This document shows positions 18,444 through 27,783 of a DNA stretch of 29,704 nt, piece by piece. How positions within the stretch are numbered: position 1 is the first letter of the stretch; each line of letters starts with the position of its first letter. The stretch spans positions 1 through 29,704 of the IMG/VR virus record IMGVR_UViG_3300049020_000030; one strand, written 5' to 3'. The translations under genes were made by a program, and so were the position numbers. The notes beneath the pieces are model-generated. The model made no database searches. It saw nothing but the letters and a program-made list of their open reading frames with translations, and was not told the DNA's origin. This stretch comes from a virus.

Positions 18444-18509
18444 ACCTGATTTCACTAAAATAGAAGATGATGATTGGGATAATCCAATCAATAACTTGTG
18501 AAATCAGGT
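18444..18509 (+). promoter_or_regulatory. inverted repeat covering the uvsW start codon
   Basis: ACCTGATTTCAC (18444-18455) is fully complementary to GTGAAATCAGGT (18498-18509); the right arm contains the first two bases of the GTG start at 18508. Between the arms lies a second small hairpin (GATTGG 18472-18477 / CCAATC 18484-18489). Folding would hide the uvsW start in transcripts that include the left arm. ACTAAAATA between the arms (18454-18462) resembles the late box with one extra A. Confidence 0.5.
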
Positions 18510-19965
18510 GAAGACAACTATAAGAATTATCGACCAAGTGAATTGCAAGTTCCTTGACGTCGACCCACATACTCGTCGAAAGATGGTTGAGGAATTGAAA
18601 TATTTCTTGCCACATGCTCGACACACCCCTGCATTCAAACTTGGTAGATGGGACGGCACCCAAAGTTTCTTCCAAGTTTCTGGAGCCACCTTCGTTAATC
18701 TTTTGGAGCGAGTTCTTCCAATCGTAATCGATGCTGGCTATGATGTTGACATTGATGATCAACGACCACCGTTTGAGTTTGAATTCCCGGAATGTGATGA
18801 GTTCCTGTTGAGTGAAACCTCATGGCCAAAAGGTCACCCAGCTGAAGGTGAACCTATCATGCTCCGTGATTATCAGGTCCAAGCCATCAACAACTTCTTC
18901 CAGAATAAGCACAGCATGCAACAGATCAGCACTGGTGCGGGCAAGACTATTATCTGCGGTGCACTAAGCAAGCTGTGTGAACAATACGGTAGAACACTGA
19001 TTATCGTCCCTAGCAAGAGCTTGGTGACACAAACTGAAGAAGACTATCGCAACCTTGGTCTCGATGTTGGCGTCTATTACGGTGACCGAAAGGAAATTGG
19101 ACACCTGCACACTATTTCAACTTGGCAATCCCTGAGTTCATTGTGTAAGAAATCAGGCTTTGATGAAGACTTCACGATAGCTGATATGATCGAGGGCGTG
19201 GTTACCGTAGTAGTTGATGAAGCCCACTCAGCAAAGGGTAATGATCTTCAGACAATGTTGGCTGGTCCGCTCGCCAACATTCCAATCCGTTGGGGTCTGA
19301 CCGGTACTATCCCCAAGGATGAGGTTGATCAAATCAGATTGTTGTCATGCTTGGGCCCAGTAGTTGGTAACATCACTGCCAAGGAACTCCAGGACAAGGG
19401 CGTATTGAGTCAATGTCATGTAAACATTCTGCAACTCGATGACGAGCATGTGGAGTTCAAGAGTTACGCGGATGAGAAGAACTATTTGACATCAGATACG
19501 GCTAGACTTACCTGGATCGCCAACAAAGCTAGAGAATTGGCACTTGAAGGCAACACTCTGATATTGATCGATCGAATTGAAACAGGAACCACGTTACATG
19601 AGCTGTTGCCTGATTCTGTATTCATCAATGGATCGGTGAAGAATGCAACCAGAAAAGAAGAGTATGATTCCATTCAAGAAGCTGACAACAAGATCCTAGT
19701 TGCCACCTATGGTGTTGCCGCTGTGGGTATCAACATTCCACGTATTTTCAACTTGATCTTGATTGAACCTGGGAAATCCTTTGTTCGAGTGATTCAAAGT
19801 ATTGGACGTGGCATCAGAAAAGCCAAAGACAAGGACTTCGTTGATATCTGGGATGTGACCAGTACGCTGAAGTTTTCAGCAAAGCATTTGAAAGCCAGAA
19901 AGGTTTTCTACAAGGATGCTTCATATCCGTACACGACGGAAAAAATCGATTACCGTAAAAAATAA
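18508..19965 (+). CDS. uvsW: UvsW-like recombination helicase, SF2
   Basis: The 485-residue protein matches T4 UvsW in length and order. An N-terminal DNA-contact domain with PAFKLGRWDG (41-50) is followed by the Q-region LRDYQVQAI (119-127), Walker A STGAGKT (141-147), DEAH (237-240), motif III LTGTI (264-268) and a C-terminal lobe ending in VIQSIGRGIRKAKDKDF (motif VI). UvsW unwinds branched DNA and R-loops and helps switch T4 from origin to recombination-dependent replication. The start is GTG 18508, without a clear Shine-Dalgarno and inside an inverted repeat, which suggests translational control. Confidence 0.93.
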   Translation: MKTTIRIIDQVNCKFLDVDPHTRRKMVEELKYFLPHARHTPAFKLGRWDGTQSFFQVSGATFVNLLERVLPIVIDAGYDVDIDDQRPPFEFEFPECDEFLLSETSWPKGHPAEGEPIMLRDYQVQAINNFFQNKHSMQQISTGAGKTIICGALSKLCEQYGRTLIIVPSKSLVTQTEEDYRNLGLDVGVYYGDRKEIGHLHTISTWQSLSSLCKKSGFDEDFTIADMIEGVVTVVVDEAHSAKGNDLQTMLAGPLANIPIRWGLTGTIPKDEVDQIRLLSCLGPVVGNITAKELQDKGVLSQCHVNILQLDDEHVEFKSYADEKNYLTSDTARLTWIANKARELALEGNTLILIDRIETGTTLHELLPDSVFINGSVKNATRKEEYDSIQEADNKILVATYGVAAVGINIPRIFNLILIEPGKSFVRVIQSIGRGIRKAKDKDFVDIWDVTSTLKFSAKHLKARKVFYKDASYPYTTEKIDYRKK

Positions 19966-20479: not shown

Positions 20480-20962
20480 ATGAAAAGAGAAGACTTTCTA
20501 GTTGACGGCGTGGTTCAACCAATTGTCACCCAGGACTCAATCCTGGGTCTCTATGGCCCATACCGATGTTTGTCAAATTTCCACAAATTCCCATTCACAT
20601 ATCAGGGGCGGGTGTATCAAACATCTGAAGCTGCTTACATGTCTGCGAAAACCCTAGATCCGGTCGAGAAAGATTATTTCGCAACGTTGTACGAGGGTAA
20701 GGAAGCCAAGGCTTATGGCTATCAGATCAAGCTCAGGGATGAATGGGATGATCGACATAGAATTCACGCAATGTATCGAGTTCTCTTTGCCAAATTCACC
20801 CAGGATATTGATTCATTGAATGTACTCTTGTCTACTGGTGACAAGTACATTGAAGAGTCCAATTGGTGGGGTGACGTTTATTGGGGAAGATGTAATGGCA
20901 TCGGAACCAACCATCTGGGAAGTATTTTGATGACCATTAGGGATTTTGTGTCATCAAAATAA
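20480..20962 (+). CDS. NADAR (YbiA/RibX-like) domain protein
   Basis: The 160-residue protein is a single NADAR domain of usual length. YGPYRCLSNFHKFPF (25-39) is the family opening (Y/FG...LSNF...PF), YQTSEAAYMSAK (46-57) holds the active-site Glu50, and ESNWWGDVYWG (126-136), GIGTNHLGSILMTIR (140-154) complete the pocket. Family members act on ADP-ribose or N-glycosidic bonds. Some NADAR proteins remove ADP-ribose from guanine in DNA and act as antitoxins to DarT-type enzymes. In a phage this makes counter-defence or nucleotide/NAD metabolism the likely roles. It is the last gene of the uvsW operon before a terminator. Confidence 0.88.
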   Translation: MKREDFLVDGVVQPIVTQDSILGLYGPYRCLSNFHKFPFTYQGRVYQTSEAAYMSAKTLDPVEKDYFATLYEGKEAKAYGYQIKLRDEWDDRHRIHAMYRVLFAKFTQDIDSLNVLLSTGDKYIEESNWWGDVYWGRCNGIGTNHLGSILMTIRDFVSSK

Positions 20963-21112: not shown

Positions 21113-21745
21113 ATGGACCTTTTCGACCTAATTGCCGACCTACCCTCAATCTCTGAGCAGAAAGAGATTGATAAACTGTTGGCCAAAAACCCTGATCTGA
21201 TCTATGACGATGTGCCATTACCAGATGACAAGAAAGTGGATATCTTCAATCTGTTGCAGAACGTTGATTACCGAAATCTGAGTTTTTACAATAGACTCAC
21301 CGAGAACGAACAGAAGACTTTTCCCCTTTATGTGGCCATGCGGTGGCTAAGTGGGGTATCCGATTCGTCAGTACACCGTGACAACACTTTGTTCTATGTA
21401 AATAACGTTCTGAACGTTGACTTCGATGTGTTGTCCAAACACCCAGAGTTCATGTGGAAGTTGATGGCCGCCGGTGGTTGTGGTACCAAGCTCAGATACA
21501 ATTGGATTCCATCAGCGAAGAAATCCAAAACCAGTAACAAGGTAGACGAATTCATGCTTCGTTGGTATCCGAGTGCAAATGATCTAGAGCTCAAAATACT
21601 AACCGGAAAAATGACACGTGATGAATTCGAACAATTTGCAAAATCAGCAGAATCAGATGACAGAAAAATCAAAGAACTCCTCGAAGACTTCGACATCCAG
21701 CGCGGCGTCAAGCCGAAAAAAGCCACTAAAAAGCGAAAAGATTGA
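21113..21745 (+). CDS. possible sliding-clamp loader small subunit (gp62-like)
   Basis: This 210-residue protein starts MDLFDLIADLP at ATG 21113; a longer in-frame version from 21089 is less likely. It has a helical core: DIFNLLQNVDYRNLSFY, PLYVAMRWLSGVSD, YVNNVLNVDFDVLSKHPEFMWKLM, then a basic stretch RYNWIPSAKKSK and a final Lys-rich tail. The pattern of a helix-rich 200-residue protein with FPxxxAMRxxS resembles T4 gp62 and proteins labelled clamp-loader small subunit in related phages, but similarity is weak. Neighbouring replication genes support it. The 3' end overlaps the next frame. Confidence 0.55.
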   Translation: MDLFDLIADLPSISEQKEIDKLLAKNPDLIYDDVPLPDDKKVDIFNLLQNVDYRNLSFYNRLTENEQKTFPLYVAMRWLSGVSDSSVHRDNTLFYVNNVLNVDFDVLSKHPEFMWKLMAAGGCGTKLRYNWIPSAKKSKTSNKVDEFMLRWYPSANDLELKILTGKMTRDEFEQFAKSAESDDRKIKELLEDFDIQRGVKPKKATKKRKD

Positions 21746-22415
21746 ACACGTCTGCGAGTTTTGCAAAAGAGCATTTGTTCGTGAAAGCACGTTGATTGTT
21801 CATGTCTGCGAGAAGAAGCGTAGATGGATGGTCAGAGATGAAAAGTACACCAAGATGGGCTTCTTCGTGTACAAGAAGTTCTACGATATCACGTATCGGG
21901 GAATGAAGCCCAGGACCTACGAGGATTTCATCGATAGCAACTATTTCACGAGCTTCAGTAAGTTTGGCAGATACTTGATTGATATTCAAGCTATCAAGCC
22001 AGAAGCGTTCGTGGACTTTTTGTTGAAGGCACAAGTGCCGCTGAAAAACTGGCAGTTGCCGTTTGTCTATGAACAATTCATCCGTGAACTCAACAAGCGT
22101 GAGACTGCTACCAGTGCAGTTGAGCGCAACATCCTATTGATGCAACAGTGGGAGATTGAGAATGGTAAGCCCTGGTATGACTTTTTCCGTGAAGTTAGCC
22201 CGCATCTTGCCACACATTGGATTCAAAGTGGTCGATTGAGCCCATGGGTTCTCTACACGGCAACCACATCTCAATATCTGTTTGAACGTTTCACTGACGA
22301 ACAATTGGCGATCATCGAGAAGCATGTTGATCCGAGATTCTGGCAGAGAAAGTTTGACGAGAGCCCAGAAGAGGTTGCGTTTGTGAAAGAACTATTGGCA
22401 GAGGCAGGAGTATGA
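21657..22415 (+). CDS. zinc-finger phage protein, about 224-252 aa
   Basis: From ATG 21657 the product has 252 residues. The first 30 are a Ser/Lys-rich sequence read out of frame across the previous gene, followed by CEFCKRAFVRESTLIVHVC, a C-x2-C-x12-H-x-C zinc site (Cys33, Cys36, His49, Cys51), then EKKRRW. The rest is helical with KTYEDF-like and FFREVSP motifs typical of a conserved phage family of unknown role. Relatives usually begin only a few residues before the first Cys, so an ATT start at 21741, overlapping the upstream TGA as ATTGA, is a real alternative. No Shine-Dalgarno marks 21657. It overlaps the next gene by ATGA. Confidence 0.7.
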   Translation: MTEKSKNSSKTSTSSAASSRKKPLKSEKIEHVCEFCKRAFVRESTLIVHVCEKKRRWMVRDEKYTKMGFFVYKKFYDITYRGMKPRTYEDFIDSNYFTSFSKFGRYLIDIQAIKPEAFVDFLLKAQVPLKNWQLPFVYEQFIRELNKRETATSAVERNILLMQQWEIENGKPWYDFFREVSPHLATHWIQSGRLSPWVLYTATTSQYLFERFTDEQLAIIEKHVDPRFWQRKFDESPEEVAFVKELLAEAGV

Positions 22416-22740: not shown

Positions 22741-23205
22741 ATGGCCACAAACGTAATTTTCGATGACTATGTGTTGAGAACTAGAACGGCGATTTTGTTG
22801 GGTGACAATTCCCTACAAGAAGTCATCGACCGTTGGGAGAGCGTTGATCCGCTTTTGGTGGCCCTTGATAATGTGGAATTGTTCAAAGGACGATCACAAT
22901 GGTCCAAGTTGGATCCACATCACTGGCGTTTATTGATCACTAACACATTGAACAAACGTGACACAGTTTTGAAGCCAGAAGACCGTTACAACGATGAGAA
23001 ACCAATTGTTGCTTCATTGTTATTCCTAGTCATGGGTTTGGTTCATTGTATTCAACTTCGATCCACAGGTGCGGTTGACACCCTGAGAATAGTGCGAATT
23101 TCAGAGATTGATATTACTCTGGAGTTTACGGTGCTGATGATGAGTCAGCCCAAGAAGAAATTGCCACCCACCGGTGGTTTGCAAGTTGTTGTGGATAATA
23201 CATGA
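22741..23205 (+). CDS. hypothetical protein, 154 aa, partner of mini-DnaE
   Basis: GAGGTGACTA gives a strong ribosome-binding site for ATG 22741. The protein is helical in its first half (DNSLQEVIDRWESVDPLLVALDNVELF) and has strands towards the end (IDITLEFTVLMMSQ), with a hydrophobic segment ASLLFLVMGLVHCIQL around residue 91-106 that is more likely a buried helix than a membrane span. Its stop overlaps the start of the DnaE-like gene as ATGA, so the two are probably made together and may interact. No family is recognised. Confidence 0.6.
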   Translation: MATNVIFDDYVLRTRTAILLGDNSLQEVIDRWESVDPLLVALDNVELFKGRSQWSKLDPHHWRLLITNTLNKRDTVLKPEDRYNDEKPIVASLLFLVMGLVHCIQLRSTGAVDTLRIVRISEIDITLEFTVLMMSQPKKKLPPTGGLQVVVDNT

Positions 23206-23777
23206 GCGCGGATATTGACGTTGACTTTCAGGATAGAGGAAAACCTCTGGGATTCTTGCCGCATATTTTGGCTTTGATGAATCACAATGGGCAAGATGTC
23301 AAACACAATACTGGCGTCTACTTCCAGAACATCCCCACCAACCCCTTAAGTGGTATTGCCAGCATTCCCTATAAAAAGGCTGATGCACTGGGGTACTTCA
23401 AGATCGACTTCATCAACAACACGGTTTATGAGAACGTTCAGGATGAGAATCACCTCATTCAATTGATGAACACTGAACCACCATGGGAAATGTTGGAAGA
23501 GGCGGATTTCGTTGAAATGCTGGCTCACATTCACAGTCACAAAGATATCGTGGATGTTATCAAACCCAAGTCGGTGGAAGATTTGGCTGTGGTCTTGGCT
23601 TTGATTAGACCAGGGAAGAGATCGTTGATGTATTTGGATCGAAATGAAATCGATGCCAAGATATGGGAACCACCACAGGATGGTTCATATCACTTCAAGA
23701 AAAGCCACTCGGTGGCTTATGCTGTTTCAATTGTAGTGCAGATGAACTTGCTAATCGAACTCGGGGAACAGGAATGA
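23202..23777 (+). CDS. mini DNA polymerase III alpha (DnaE)-like protein, 191 aa
   Basis: The short protein keeps, in order, motifs of the C-family polymerase core. ADIDVDFQDR (3-12) matches the DxDxDF palm motif that carries two catalytic Asp (Asp4, Asp6). KHNTGVYF (34-41) matches the HxAGVV region. KADALGYFKIDFINNTVYENV (59-79) matches the GLxKxDFLGLxTL motif with the third Asp (Asp69). SVEDLAVVLALIRPGKR (124-140) matches SFEDLVALxALxRPG, and KKSHSVAYAVSIVVQ (166-180) matches FNKSHAxAYAxxxYQ. Bacterial DnaE is about 1,160 residues; the PHP, thumb, beta-binding and OB domains are absent here. It may be a relic with a new job, a nucleic-acid-binding protein or a minimal nucleotidyltransferase. 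Confidence 0.75.
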   Translation: MSADIDVDFQDRGKPLGFLPHILALMNHNGQDVKHNTGVYFQNIPTNPLSGIASIPYKKADALGYFKIDFINNTVYENVQDENHLIQLMNTEPPWEMLEEADFVEMLAHIHSHKDIVDVIKPKSVEDLAVVLALIRPGKRSLMYLDRNEIDAKIWEPPQDGSYHFKKSHSVAYAVSIVVQMNLLIELGEQE

Positions 23778-24019
23778 CACTCCTGCGAATAAGTCAGGCG
23801 TCATTTACTCCAACTCAACTTGATGACATCAATCACTGGTTGGCATACCAAACAATTGGCAACTGGGAAATGGTAGCGAACTGGGAAGGTAGATTTGAAG
23901 ACTTCATGATTTGGCTGAGCTTCAAAGAAGATTCAGACCTAATACAGTTTAAATTGCAATGGTCTGATATCTGTGAAATGGTTACATTTTACGAACCAGC
24001 GTTATCTGACGCTTCCTGA
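23774..24019 (+). CDS. small conserved phage protein, 81 aa
   Basis: ATG 23774 overlaps the stop of the DnaE-like gene (ATGA). The protein has NHWLAYQTIGNWEMVANW followed by FMIWLSFKEDSDLIQFKLQW, the same arrangement seen in the C-terminal half of the 5529-5939 product, so the two are probably paralogues. The FxExxDLxxFKLxW signature is shared; function is unknown. Its 3' end overlaps the convergent minus-strand gene by 38 bases. Confidence 0.6.
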   Translation: MTLLRISQASFTPTQLDDINHWLAYQTIGNWEMVANWEGRFEDFMIWLSFKEDSDLIQFKLQWSDICEMVTFYEPALSDAS

Positions 24020-24353
24020 TTCGTCTACTGATAGTTTCCTGCAGACTGACTGCGTGGCCTGCCTGTAGGTCAAAGTCCTTTCGACCAAAGTGTTTGATGA
24101 ATGGTCGGAAAACTCTAAATTCTTCCTTGTGGAAGATGTTGATTGGGATCTGGCGGTTACTACCCCACCACCATTCCTCACCATATTGGAGGAATAGTTT
24201 CCTGATTTCCTCGTTTGGCATCATATCCAAAACGTACATAGACAACAAACTGTTGTCTGAGTTCTGAATAATACCCAGATATTCTTTTTCGTCGAATATC
24301 CCGTAGCTCAGAAACGGAAACTTCTCTAAGATTTGTTGAATTTGTTCGTTCAT
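23982..24353 (-). CDS. conserved phage protein, 123 aa
   Basis: The protein begins MNEQIQQILEKFPFLSYGIFD and carries YLGIIQNSDNSLLSMYVLDMM, FLQYGEEWWWGSNRQIPINIF and a basic end (RRIRKRQITLVRK). This set resembles a conserved family of small unannotated proteins that I recall from T4-like phages. ATG 24353 is preferred to a non-ATG start at 24386. A late-promoter box on this strand lies 23 bases upstream. It is the only leftward gene in the right half of the window and converges on the 81-aa gene. Confidence 0.75.
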   Translation of the reverse strand: MNEQIQQILEKFPFLSYGIFDEKEYLGIIQNSDNSLLSMYVLDMMPNEEIRKLFLQYGEEWWWGSNRQIPINIFHKEEFRVFRPFIKHFGRKDFDLQAGHAVSLQETISRRIRKRQITLVRKM

Positions 24354-24376
24354 TAACTGGTTCGCCTGGTTGCCAA

Positions 24377-24384
24377 TATTTAGC
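24377..24384 (-). promoter_or_regulatory. late promoter candidate on minus strand, GCTAAATA
   Basis: Read on the minus strand the sequence is GCTAAATA, 23 bases before the ATG at 24353. Together with the plus-strand box at 24413 it forms a divergent promoter pair in an 88-base gap. Confidence 0.5.
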
Positions 24385-24412
24385 AAATGAAATTTGTCGA
24401 TTTGGTGGCAAT

Positions 24413-25231: not shown

Positions 25232-25275
25232 ATATAGGTACCCCACCAGTAAAATCTGGTTTTACGTACCTATAT
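25232..25275 (+). promoter_or_regulatory. two-tier hairpin that covers the primase start codon
   Basis: ATATAGGTAC (25232-25241) is complementary to GTACCTATAT (25266-25275), and inside it ACCAG and CTGGT can form a second stem. The right arm includes the A and T of ATG 25274. The fold begins two bases after the previous stop, so it may be a terminator, a translational block, or both. Confidence 0.5.
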
Positions 25276-26302
25276 GGCATCTTTTGACACCTCATTCTTG
25301 ACTGATAAACTCAGTCAAGTCCTCCCTCACCCCCGAAAACGAGTACCTGATGGTCTTCAGGTAAACTGCCCAATGTGTTTGTCCATGGGCCAGCCCAGAC
25401 CAGACACCAAGTTCCGGTGTGGTTATCGACCATTTGCCACGGGTGGTTTCAACATGAACTGCTTCAACTGTGGTTTCAAGATTATCTGGCGTCCTGGTTC
25501 GCTGTTGAGTACAAAGGTCAAGAGTTTGTTGGGAACGTTGGGTGTTCCAGATCAGGATATCGCCAAACTGAACTTCTCTGCTTGGCAAATCAAGAACAGT
25601 TTGGGCCCCACCGGTATCGCGGAACGCCCCATGTTCAATCCCAACTTCAAAGAAGTACCATTACCTGATGGCTCGATGAGTTTGGATTTCTGGTTGGACG
25701 AGGGCTTGGATGATCCCGACTTCTTGGCTGTATTGGCATATGCAGCCAGTCGAGGTGATGATGTGGTGCAATCCGCAAACCTACATTGGACCCCTGAAAA
25801 GAGAAACAATTTGAACAGAAGATTGTTGATTCCATTCATGTGGAATGATACCGTGGTTGGGTACAGTGGACGTTCCGTGGATTCAGATGTTCGTCCCAGA
25901 TATTACACAAACACCCCAGAACACTTTCTCATCAACAATCGTGTTTTGACACTGGATCGTAAATTTGTAATAGTGGTTGAAGGGACACTTGATGCATTCG
26001 CAATTGATGGCGTTTCCACTCAAGGTGCGAAAGTATCAGAAGAACAAGCGCAATGGATCAATGATTCTGGCAAGGAAGTAATCGTGCTTCCCGATATGGA
26101 AATATCCGGCCAGCCTCTCATAGATGCAGCATTGAAACACAATTGGAAGGTCAGCTTTCCAACATGGGGAACTGGCATCAAGGATGCCAACGATGCTGTT
26201 AAGGAATATGGCAGATTGTTCACTTTGAAATCAATCATCCAGAATGCTACTGATCAAAAGCTGAAGATAAATCTGTTGCGCAAGAGACTTAATAAAAAAT
26301 GA
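25274..26302 (+). CDS. 61: DNA primase, TOPRIM type (gp61-like)
   Basis: The 342-residue protein has an N-terminal zinc site (CPMC 32-35 and CFNC 63-66, with Cys49 between) and a TOPRIM catalytic core. VVEGTLDAF (234-242) holds the catalytic Glu236, LPDME (272-276) the first acidic pair and KDANDA (303-308) the second. It makes RNA primers for lagging-strand synthesis and works with the replicative helicase, which here follows with an ATGA overlap (26299-26302). In T4, genes 61 and 41 are separate proteins that form the primosome, as here. ATG 25274 lies in the right arm of a hairpin. Confidence 0.9.
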   Translation: MASFDTSFLTDKLSQVLPHPRKRVPDGLQVNCPMCLSMGQPRPDTKFRCGYRPFATGGFNMNCFNCGFKIIWRPGSLLSTKVKSLLGTLGVPDQDIAKLNFSAWQIKNSLGPTGIAERPMFNPNFKEVPLPDGSMSLDFWLDEGLDDPDFLAVLAYAASRGDDVVQSANLHWTPEKRNNLNRRLLIPFMWNDTVVGYSGRSVDSDVRPRYYTNTPEHFLINNRVLTLDRKFVIVVEGTLDAFAIDGVSTQGAKVSEEQAQWINDSGKEVIVLPDMEISGQPLIDAALKHNWKVSFPTWGTGIKDANDAVKEYGRLFTLKSIIQNATDQKLKINLLRKRLNKK

Positions 26303-27783
26303 AACAAGAAAAAAAAGACGTAAAGAATTATACCTTTGAGGTTCAGGAAATGTTGCTGAACTTCCTGATAAGTGACCCTTCCTCATTCACACGGTGTCAG
26401 GGCATTATCAAACCAGAATATTGGCAAGAACGCCTCCGCCCAGCCGTACGATACGTGATGGAATTTGCTGGTGAATTCCGAGCACTGCCAAAGGCAGAAC
26501 AAATCGTTGCTGAGACCAAGGTAAATGTGGTTCCAGTTGGTGATATTGCACCACAGCATAGTGAATGGTTTCTGAAAGAGATCGAACAATTCTGCAGACA
26601 TAGAGCGGTTGAAACGGTAATCATGGAAGGTGCGGACTTGGTTGAGTCCGGGCAATACTCTGACGTTGAAAGTCGTCTCAAGGATGCGCTAACGATCAGT
26701 TTGCAAACTGATCTTGGTACAAGCTATTTTGAAGATCCTAAGAAGCGTATTCAGGAAGTCCTGGACAGACAAGACGTCGTATCGACTGGATGGAATGCCC
26801 TGGATTCAAGATTGTATGGTGGCTTCACCAAGGGAACATTGAACATCTTTGCTGGTGGTTCTGGTTCTGGTAAGAGTTTGTTCCTGCAGAATTTGGCATT
26901 GAACTGGTCATTCATGGGTCACGATGTTATCTACTTCTCCCTGGAATTGAGTGAAAACTTGGTTGCAGCTAGATTGGACTCGATGGTGACTGGTTATACG
27001 ACCAAGGAAATCTTCAAGAAGATCGATGACGTTGATCTCAGGGTCAAGATGCAGGGTAGGAAGTCCGGGTCGATCATGATCAAGAAACTCCCAGAAGCTG
27101 GTACCACGACCAATATGCTTCGTGCTTACATGAAGGAATATGAGATCAAGAATGGTAAGAAGCCCACAGCCGTGCTTTGCGACTATTTGGACTTGATGTA
27201 TCCCAACAATTCAAAGGTCAATCCATCTGATATGTTCGTGAAGGATAAGTTTGTGGCTGAAGAATTGCGAGCATTTGCTTCTGAATTCCACTTGCTGTTT
27301 GCAACGGCCTCACAGCTGAATCGAGGTTCGGTTCAAGCAGCTGGTGAGTTCGATCACAGCCACATTGCTGGTGGTATCTCAAAGATCAACACGGCCGATA
27401 ACGTGTTTGGTATCTACACGACTCCGGGTATGAAAGAACGTGGTGAATATCAGCTGCAATTTTTGAAAACTCGTAGTAGTGCTTCCGTGGGTATGACGAT
27501 TGATCTGGCATATGACACTAGTTCTTTGCGAATTGCTGATCCAGACCCGGATGCTGATGCGACGGCGCCTAGGAATCAGAATCAACTTGTCAATGATATC
27601 AAGTCTAAGATTCAGGGTGGCACTTCGTTCACACCAAAGACTCCCAAAACGTCTGATTCAATCCAGCAACCCGCTAATCAATTGCCTAAAGCAAATGCAC
27701 CTGTGGTACCACCAGCCCTACCCAATGCATCCGCGAGCAGGGCAAAGATGCTTGATATGGTTCGGAATACCCAAAGCAGATAA
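26299..27783 (+). CDS. 41: replicative DNA helicase, DnaB/gp41-type
   Basis: The 494-residue protein has an N-terminal helical domain (1-140) and a RecA-type motor: Walker A GGSGSGKS (186-193), the YFSLELSE strand (212-219), Walker B AVLCDYLDLM (291-300) and a TASQLNR motif followed by the conserved SKINTADNVFGIY segment. The C-terminal 70 residues are Pro/Gln/Asn-rich and flexible, which may contact primase or SSB. It unwinds the fork 5' to 3' as a hexamer. Its start overlaps the primase stop by four bases, giving a primase-helicase pair made in step. Confidence 0.93.
   Translation: MKQEKKDVKNYTFEVQEMLLNFLISDPSSFTRCQGIIKPEYWQERLRPAVRYVMEFAGEFRALPKAEQIVAETKVNVVPVGDIAPQHSEWFLKEIEQFCRHRAVETVIMEGADLVESGQYSDVESRLKDALTISLQTDLGTSYFEDPKKRIQEVLDRQDVVSTGWNALDSRLYGGFTKGTLNIFAGGSGSGKSLFLQNLALNWSFMGHDVIYFSLELSENLVAARLDSMVTGYTTKEIFKKIDDVDLRVKMQGRKSGSIMIKKLPEAGTTTNMLRAYMKEYEIKNGKKPTAVLCDYLDLMYPNNSKVNPSDMFVKDKFVAEELRAFASEFHLLFATASQLNRGSVQAAGEFDHSHIAGGISKINTADNVFGIYTTPGMKERGEYQLQFLKTRSSASVGMTIDLAYDTSSLRIADPDPDADATAPRNQNQLVNDIKSKIQGGTSFTPKTPKTSDSIQQPANQLPKANAPVVPPALPNASASRAKMLDMVRNTQSR

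Follow-up and report, generated by a model that had tools for sequence, protein, structure and literature searches.

The window (the whole 29,704-nucleotide stretch of viral DNA that was analysed) carries the T4-type replication setting described in the earlier note, with genes for a gp32-like SSB, UvsX, UvsY, UvsW, a primase, and a DnaB-like helicase. The conserved part of this setting runs from UvsW to the primase and helicase, and the same block is found in relatives. Within it, a plus-strand open reading frame (ORF) was confirmed to encode a 191-aa protein with all five motifs of C-family polymerases. This protein and its homologues are called the C-half below, as they probably form the C-terminal half of a split enzyme. 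The main features are as follows, with counts given over 109 C-half loci.

18508..19965, plus strand: UvsW-like helicase, flanking the conserved block on the left (phrog_16, E 7e-80)
21618..22415, plus strand: upstream gene phrog_11058, 265 aa (E 9.5e-67; neighbour at 102/109 loci)
22741..23205, plus strand: 154-aa ORF with an ATGA overlap with the polymerase-half start; judged not to be a functional partner
23202..23777, plus strand: probable C-terminal subunit of a split C-family (Pol III alpha-like) polymerase, 191 aa, phrog_11778
23982..24386, minus strand: convergent gene phrog_11637 (E 1.3e-34), just downstream of the C-half at 103/109 loci
25274..26302, plus strand: DNA primase, flanking the conserved block on the right (phrog_47, E 9e-30; 93/109 loci)
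26299..27783, plus strand: DnaB/gp41-like replicative helicase (phrog_19, E 3e-65)

Several other observations concern the surroundings of this gene. The phrog_11058 protein (21618-22415) has a weak match to a C2H2 zinc finger (E 0.012), and the minus-strand phrog_11637 gene often overlaps the 3' end of the C-half gene in relatives. A NADAR-domain protein (PF08719, E 4e-18) is encoded inside the replication block at 20480-20962 on the plus strand, with a homologue at 0 of the 109 related loci. Further away, at 1067-2527 on the plus strand, lies a gene for a Nol/NodU-like carbamoyltransferase (phrog_1601, E 3e-98), which may modify nucleotides or sugars.

Homology, predicted fold and lost segments of the C-half

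The five motifs occur in the same order in the 191-aa protein and in E. coli DnaE, with the following positions on the plus strand.

23211..23228: DIDVDF catalytic strand, residues 4-9 (E. coli DFDVDF, 401)
23301..23315: KHNTG, residues 34-38 (E. coli KHAGG, 510-514)
23400..23411: KIDF, residues 67-70 (E. coli KFDF, 553)
23607..23621: RPGKR, residues 136-140 (E. coli RPGPL, 639)
23694..23723: FKKSHSVAYA, of which KKSHSVAYA is residues 166-174 (E. coli NKSHSAAYA, 757)

Profile searches matched the protein to phrog_11778, annotated as "DNA polymerase" (E 2.4e-66 over residues 3-186), and weakly to the cellular families TIGR00594 polC (E 9e-5) and PF17657 fingers (E 0.0018). Sequence searches of the PDB were weak, both with the single sequence (E 0.27) and with a profile (E 0.011), and the C-half therefore required profile-profile and fold comparison. 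Using hhalign, a profile of 99 C-half homologues matched a profile of eleven DnaE/PolC-type sequences with 96.2% probability (E 2.2e-9). The predicted structure was confident (pLDDT 93.3), and its best 15 structural matches were all PolC or DnaE (Z 9.3 to 5.9, led by PolC at 9.3, Taq DnaE at 9.1, and E. coli at 8.7), with an unrelated fold next at Z 3.4. Foldseek placed the model with Mtb DnaE1 (E 1.8e-4). The structural matches map residues 1-191 to E. coli DnaE 399-784, and structure comparison found a palm plus fingers fold in the model. The profile-profile match and the fold comparison thus bear out the Pol III alpha homology proposed in the earlier note, and the five-motif resemblance to Pol III alpha is not due to chance.

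The three aspartates named as metal ligands hold their places in the alignment, with D4, D6, and D69 corresponding to E. coli D401, D403, and D555. The D6-D69 spacing is 63, as had been stated, versus 152 in E. coli (D403-D555), and the R136-H169 spacing is 33 versus 121; two segments, the thumb and the mid-fingers, have therefore been shortened. Only ~24-28 residues separate DxDxDF from KH.G, compared to ~104 in E. coli, which agrees with the proposed absence of a thumb. The PHP, OB, and clamp-binding parts are likewise absent, as proposed, since the ORF begins at the catalytic strand and stops at the equivalent of E. coli 784. Overlooked in that account were the loss of ~90 residues of the mid-fingers, including E. 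coli LYQEQ (685) and RRAMGKK (709), and the absence of the first half of the palm; the GRGS nucleotide-binding palm motif is not present in the 191-aa chain. The RRAMGKK segment contacts the incoming triphosphate. With the thumb, LYQEQ, and RRAMGKK lost, template-directed synthesis is not assured.

A separate gene for the N-terminal half

Homologues of the C-half were sought in several collections. Using tblastn, we found 63 phage records with a C-half, at 35-48% identity among the matches listed; nearly all come from jumbo phages of the RaK2, PA5oct, Atu_ph07, SCTP-2, and XacN1 kind, and a few of the records are shorter. PHROGs and GenBank records call the family DNA polymerase. Twelve C-half contigs came from eleven GTDB metagenome-assembled genomes. 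A cellular home for the C-half was considered and rejected, as all 12 matches are metagenome-assembled contigs that are probably mis-binned jumbo phages.

In complete relatives, PF07733 matches a distinct short gene, which we call the N-half. Its product ends in GRGSSVxSYxLxLIGxHxVxSIxYxLDxxEFLK, the counterpart of 34 residues in E. coli DnaE, and GRGSS is invariant in the N-half gene of relatives. The N-half profile found a match in 16/16 complete isolate genomes, both halves were present in 9/9 metagenomic contigs of at least 220 kb, and a profile-derived scan of viral contigs recovered at least 597 C-half and at least 592 N-half stretches. Gene coordinates place the N-half gene 15-224 kb from the C-half gene in relatives. 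No N-half ORF was seen within the 29.7-kb window; pairing of the halves is shown in relatives, and the phage studied here is known from a C-half on a 29.7-kb fragment, so that its own pairing is predicted from theirs.

The N-half model was also confident (pLDDT 91.7) and gave Z scores of ~10, reaching 12.1 to Mtb DnaE1; in profile comparison with hhalign, the N-half matched the DnaE profile with E 1.2e-12. Its residues 79-178 map to E. coli 278-393 and the C-half starts from 399, so the halves meet at 393|399, within the loop that leads into the catalytic strand. N-half residues 1-78 form a confidently modelled region that had no match and is without a counterpart in DnaE alignments; they could bind the C-half or take over from the missing thumb. 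In three relatives, the genes downstream of the N-half are a small conserved gene (phrog_14844 in one of them) and a GroES/gp31-like co-chaperonin, which are not replication genes.

The break itself is sharply defined. The N-half stops 1-7 residues past EFL in 95/95 sequences (1 residue in 79/95), and the C-half mostly has fewer than 25 in-frame residues ahead of DxD. A split intein joining the halves was rejected because these ends are too short. An assembly artefact or a frameshifted full-length DnaE was rejected as well, given the same break in ~100 independent sequences with halves 15-224 kb apart, and no fused N+C ORF was found among 198 sequences (99 N, 99 C). Distances between N-halves and between C-halves were strongly correlated over 12 genomes (r 0.98); joint inheritance of the halves predicts such a value, but vertical descent alone would produce it as well.

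These results bear on the suggestion that the 191-aa protein is a miniaturised or repurposed replicase core. Its origin from Pol III alpha stands; its being a self-contained core does not, as an N-half with GRGSS is encoded elsewhere in relatives. A related reading is that such a core works with the co-translated 154-aa protein. The two ORFs do share an ATGA overlap in the window, which would suit this reading, with the 154-aa ORF as the proposed partner. That ORF matched no family in profile searches and has a homologue at just 2/109 C-half loci, however, and the missing half of the palm is a separate gene in 25/25 near-complete relatives (at least 220 kb). We consider this reading extremely improbable. 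The 191-aa protein is instead, with good though not full confidence from its sequence and model, the C-terminal subunit of a minimal C-family polymerase that T4-related jumbo phages encode in two genes and that probably has an accessory role.

Active-site conservation and candidate function

Residues of the predicted active site are maintained throughout the family. D4, D6, and D8 are present in 98/98 C-half sequences covering them; H35, G38, K67, D69, R136, P137, K139, and H169 are invariant in 99/99; and F165 occurs in 97/99. The median pairwise dN/dS of the C-half was ~0.10 among pairs with unsaturated dS, which indicates strong purifying selection on the gene. In Mtb DnaE1, an inhibitor that occupies the site of new base-pair formation is contacted by Arg667 and His787, and the template base that it displaces clashes with Pro668 (PMC8922275). 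By alignment to 7pu7, R136, P137, and H169 correspond to Mtb DnaE1 R667, P668, and H787. Judged by aligned residues, the metal site and the nascent-base-pair pocket are thus both conserved, a combination that fits template-directed nucleotide addition better than a generic transferase activity.

The replication setting of the relatives further constrains the role of the enzyme. A family-B polymerase was found in 20/20 relatives tested, so the "replicase" label is unlikely to fit, and the split enzyme most probably supplements the replicase. Of 20 relatives, 11 have a DnaQ-like exonuclease (PF00929); it was rejected as an obligate partner and is either optional or too divergent for detection in the others.

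Two alternatives to a polymerase function were weighed against this evidence. The split complex may be a nucleotidyl transferase that is not template-directed, acting in end-tailing or modifying nucleotides, RNA, or proteins. Such a role would be consistent with a metal site and GRGSS retained while the thumb and mid-fingers were lost, and with the full family-B replicase always present in the relatives tested. The invariance of R136, P137, and H169, which suggests that base-pair selection has been retained, and the location of the C-half gene among replication genes argue the other way, and we regard a transferase as unlikely, although it deserves serious consideration. The second alternative is a dead scaffold, in which the C-half would bind DNA or replisome proteins and its polymerase chemistry would be vestigial. 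Extensive domain loss in the C-half and the presence of an active replicase encoded elsewhere could be read this way, but sequences that are mostly 35-50% identical share every metal-binding and GRGSS residue without exception. A decaying active site would not keep such residues, and a dead scaffold is accordingly a poor candidate.

Our preferred reading is an accessory polymerase made of two chains. In the proposed mechanism, the two subunits would join non-covalently and rebuild one palm, with an active site that takes GRGSS from one chain and DxD and KxD from the other. The complex would then extend a DNA 3' end by nucleotide addition at low processivity, in an accessory role that may be gap filling, repair, or lesion bypass, and bulk replication would be left to the family-B enzyme. 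The fullest form of this reading is held tentatively, with somewhat less than even confidence: the 191-aa protein and its ~178-aa partner may constitute an active, thumbless, template-directed polymerase of non-covalent halves with an active site split between chains, which would be the smallest C-family polymerase and would be maintained by hundreds of jumbo phages as their dedicated second polymerase.

Comparison with known systems

The family and its split are already known. A split minimal DNA polymerase III alpha of group 2.2 jumbo phages was described computationally by Iyer et al. (2021; PMC7824862), who proposed that the enzyme may help synthesise one strand or act in repair and that the split form may resemble an ancestral form; the 191-aa protein is a further member. 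New beyond that work are the exact breakpoint, the near-total co-occurrence of the halves, the purifying selection, the retention of the nascent-base-pair pocket, and the loss of ~90 finger residues. The phage studied here has the same C-terminal Mg-binding, template-binding piece and T4-type replication genes as the group 2.2 system, and its relatives share the distant N-terminal piece and the family-B polymerase. The sole difference seen is the non-conserved 154-aa ORF directly upstream of the C-half.

The other half of the enzyme has been reported from the same phages. CBB_328 and Atu_ph07 gp316 were described as truncated Pol III alpha (PMC5259590, PMC6102473) and, by size and annotation, are probably the N-terminal partner; the C-half apparently goes unrecognised in those two reports. 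A marine survey found PF07733, taken here to be the N-half, in 51.9% of one jumbo-phage cluster (PMC9123017). Our search of the literature, in which coverage of subscription journals was mostly missing, found no experimental study of the split enzyme.

The interest of the split enzyme lies in its unusual, predicted two-chain active site, and it points to a second polymerase common to a widespread group of giant phages. If active, it would be about one third as large as DnaE, with a catalytic site built from two separately encoded proteins. Such a minimal enzyme could then be used to ask what a bacterial replicase needs for its chemistry, and whether the split form is a reduced or an ancestral one.

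Compared to E. coli Pol III alpha, Taq DnaE, Mtb DnaE1, and Geobacillus PolC, the phage protein has the same palm strand order, DxD/KxD site, RPG and KSH nascent-pair motifs, and palm-plus-fingers fold. The phage enzyme differs from DnaE and PolC in consisting of two chains, in being without the PHP, thumb, clamp-binding, and OB parts, and in having ~90 fewer finger residues; the invariant Lys139 is phage-specific. Cyanobacterial DnaE is split into two distant genes with the DnaE intein. The phage polymerase is likewise encoded by two distant genes, but its break point differs and its halves are without an intein.
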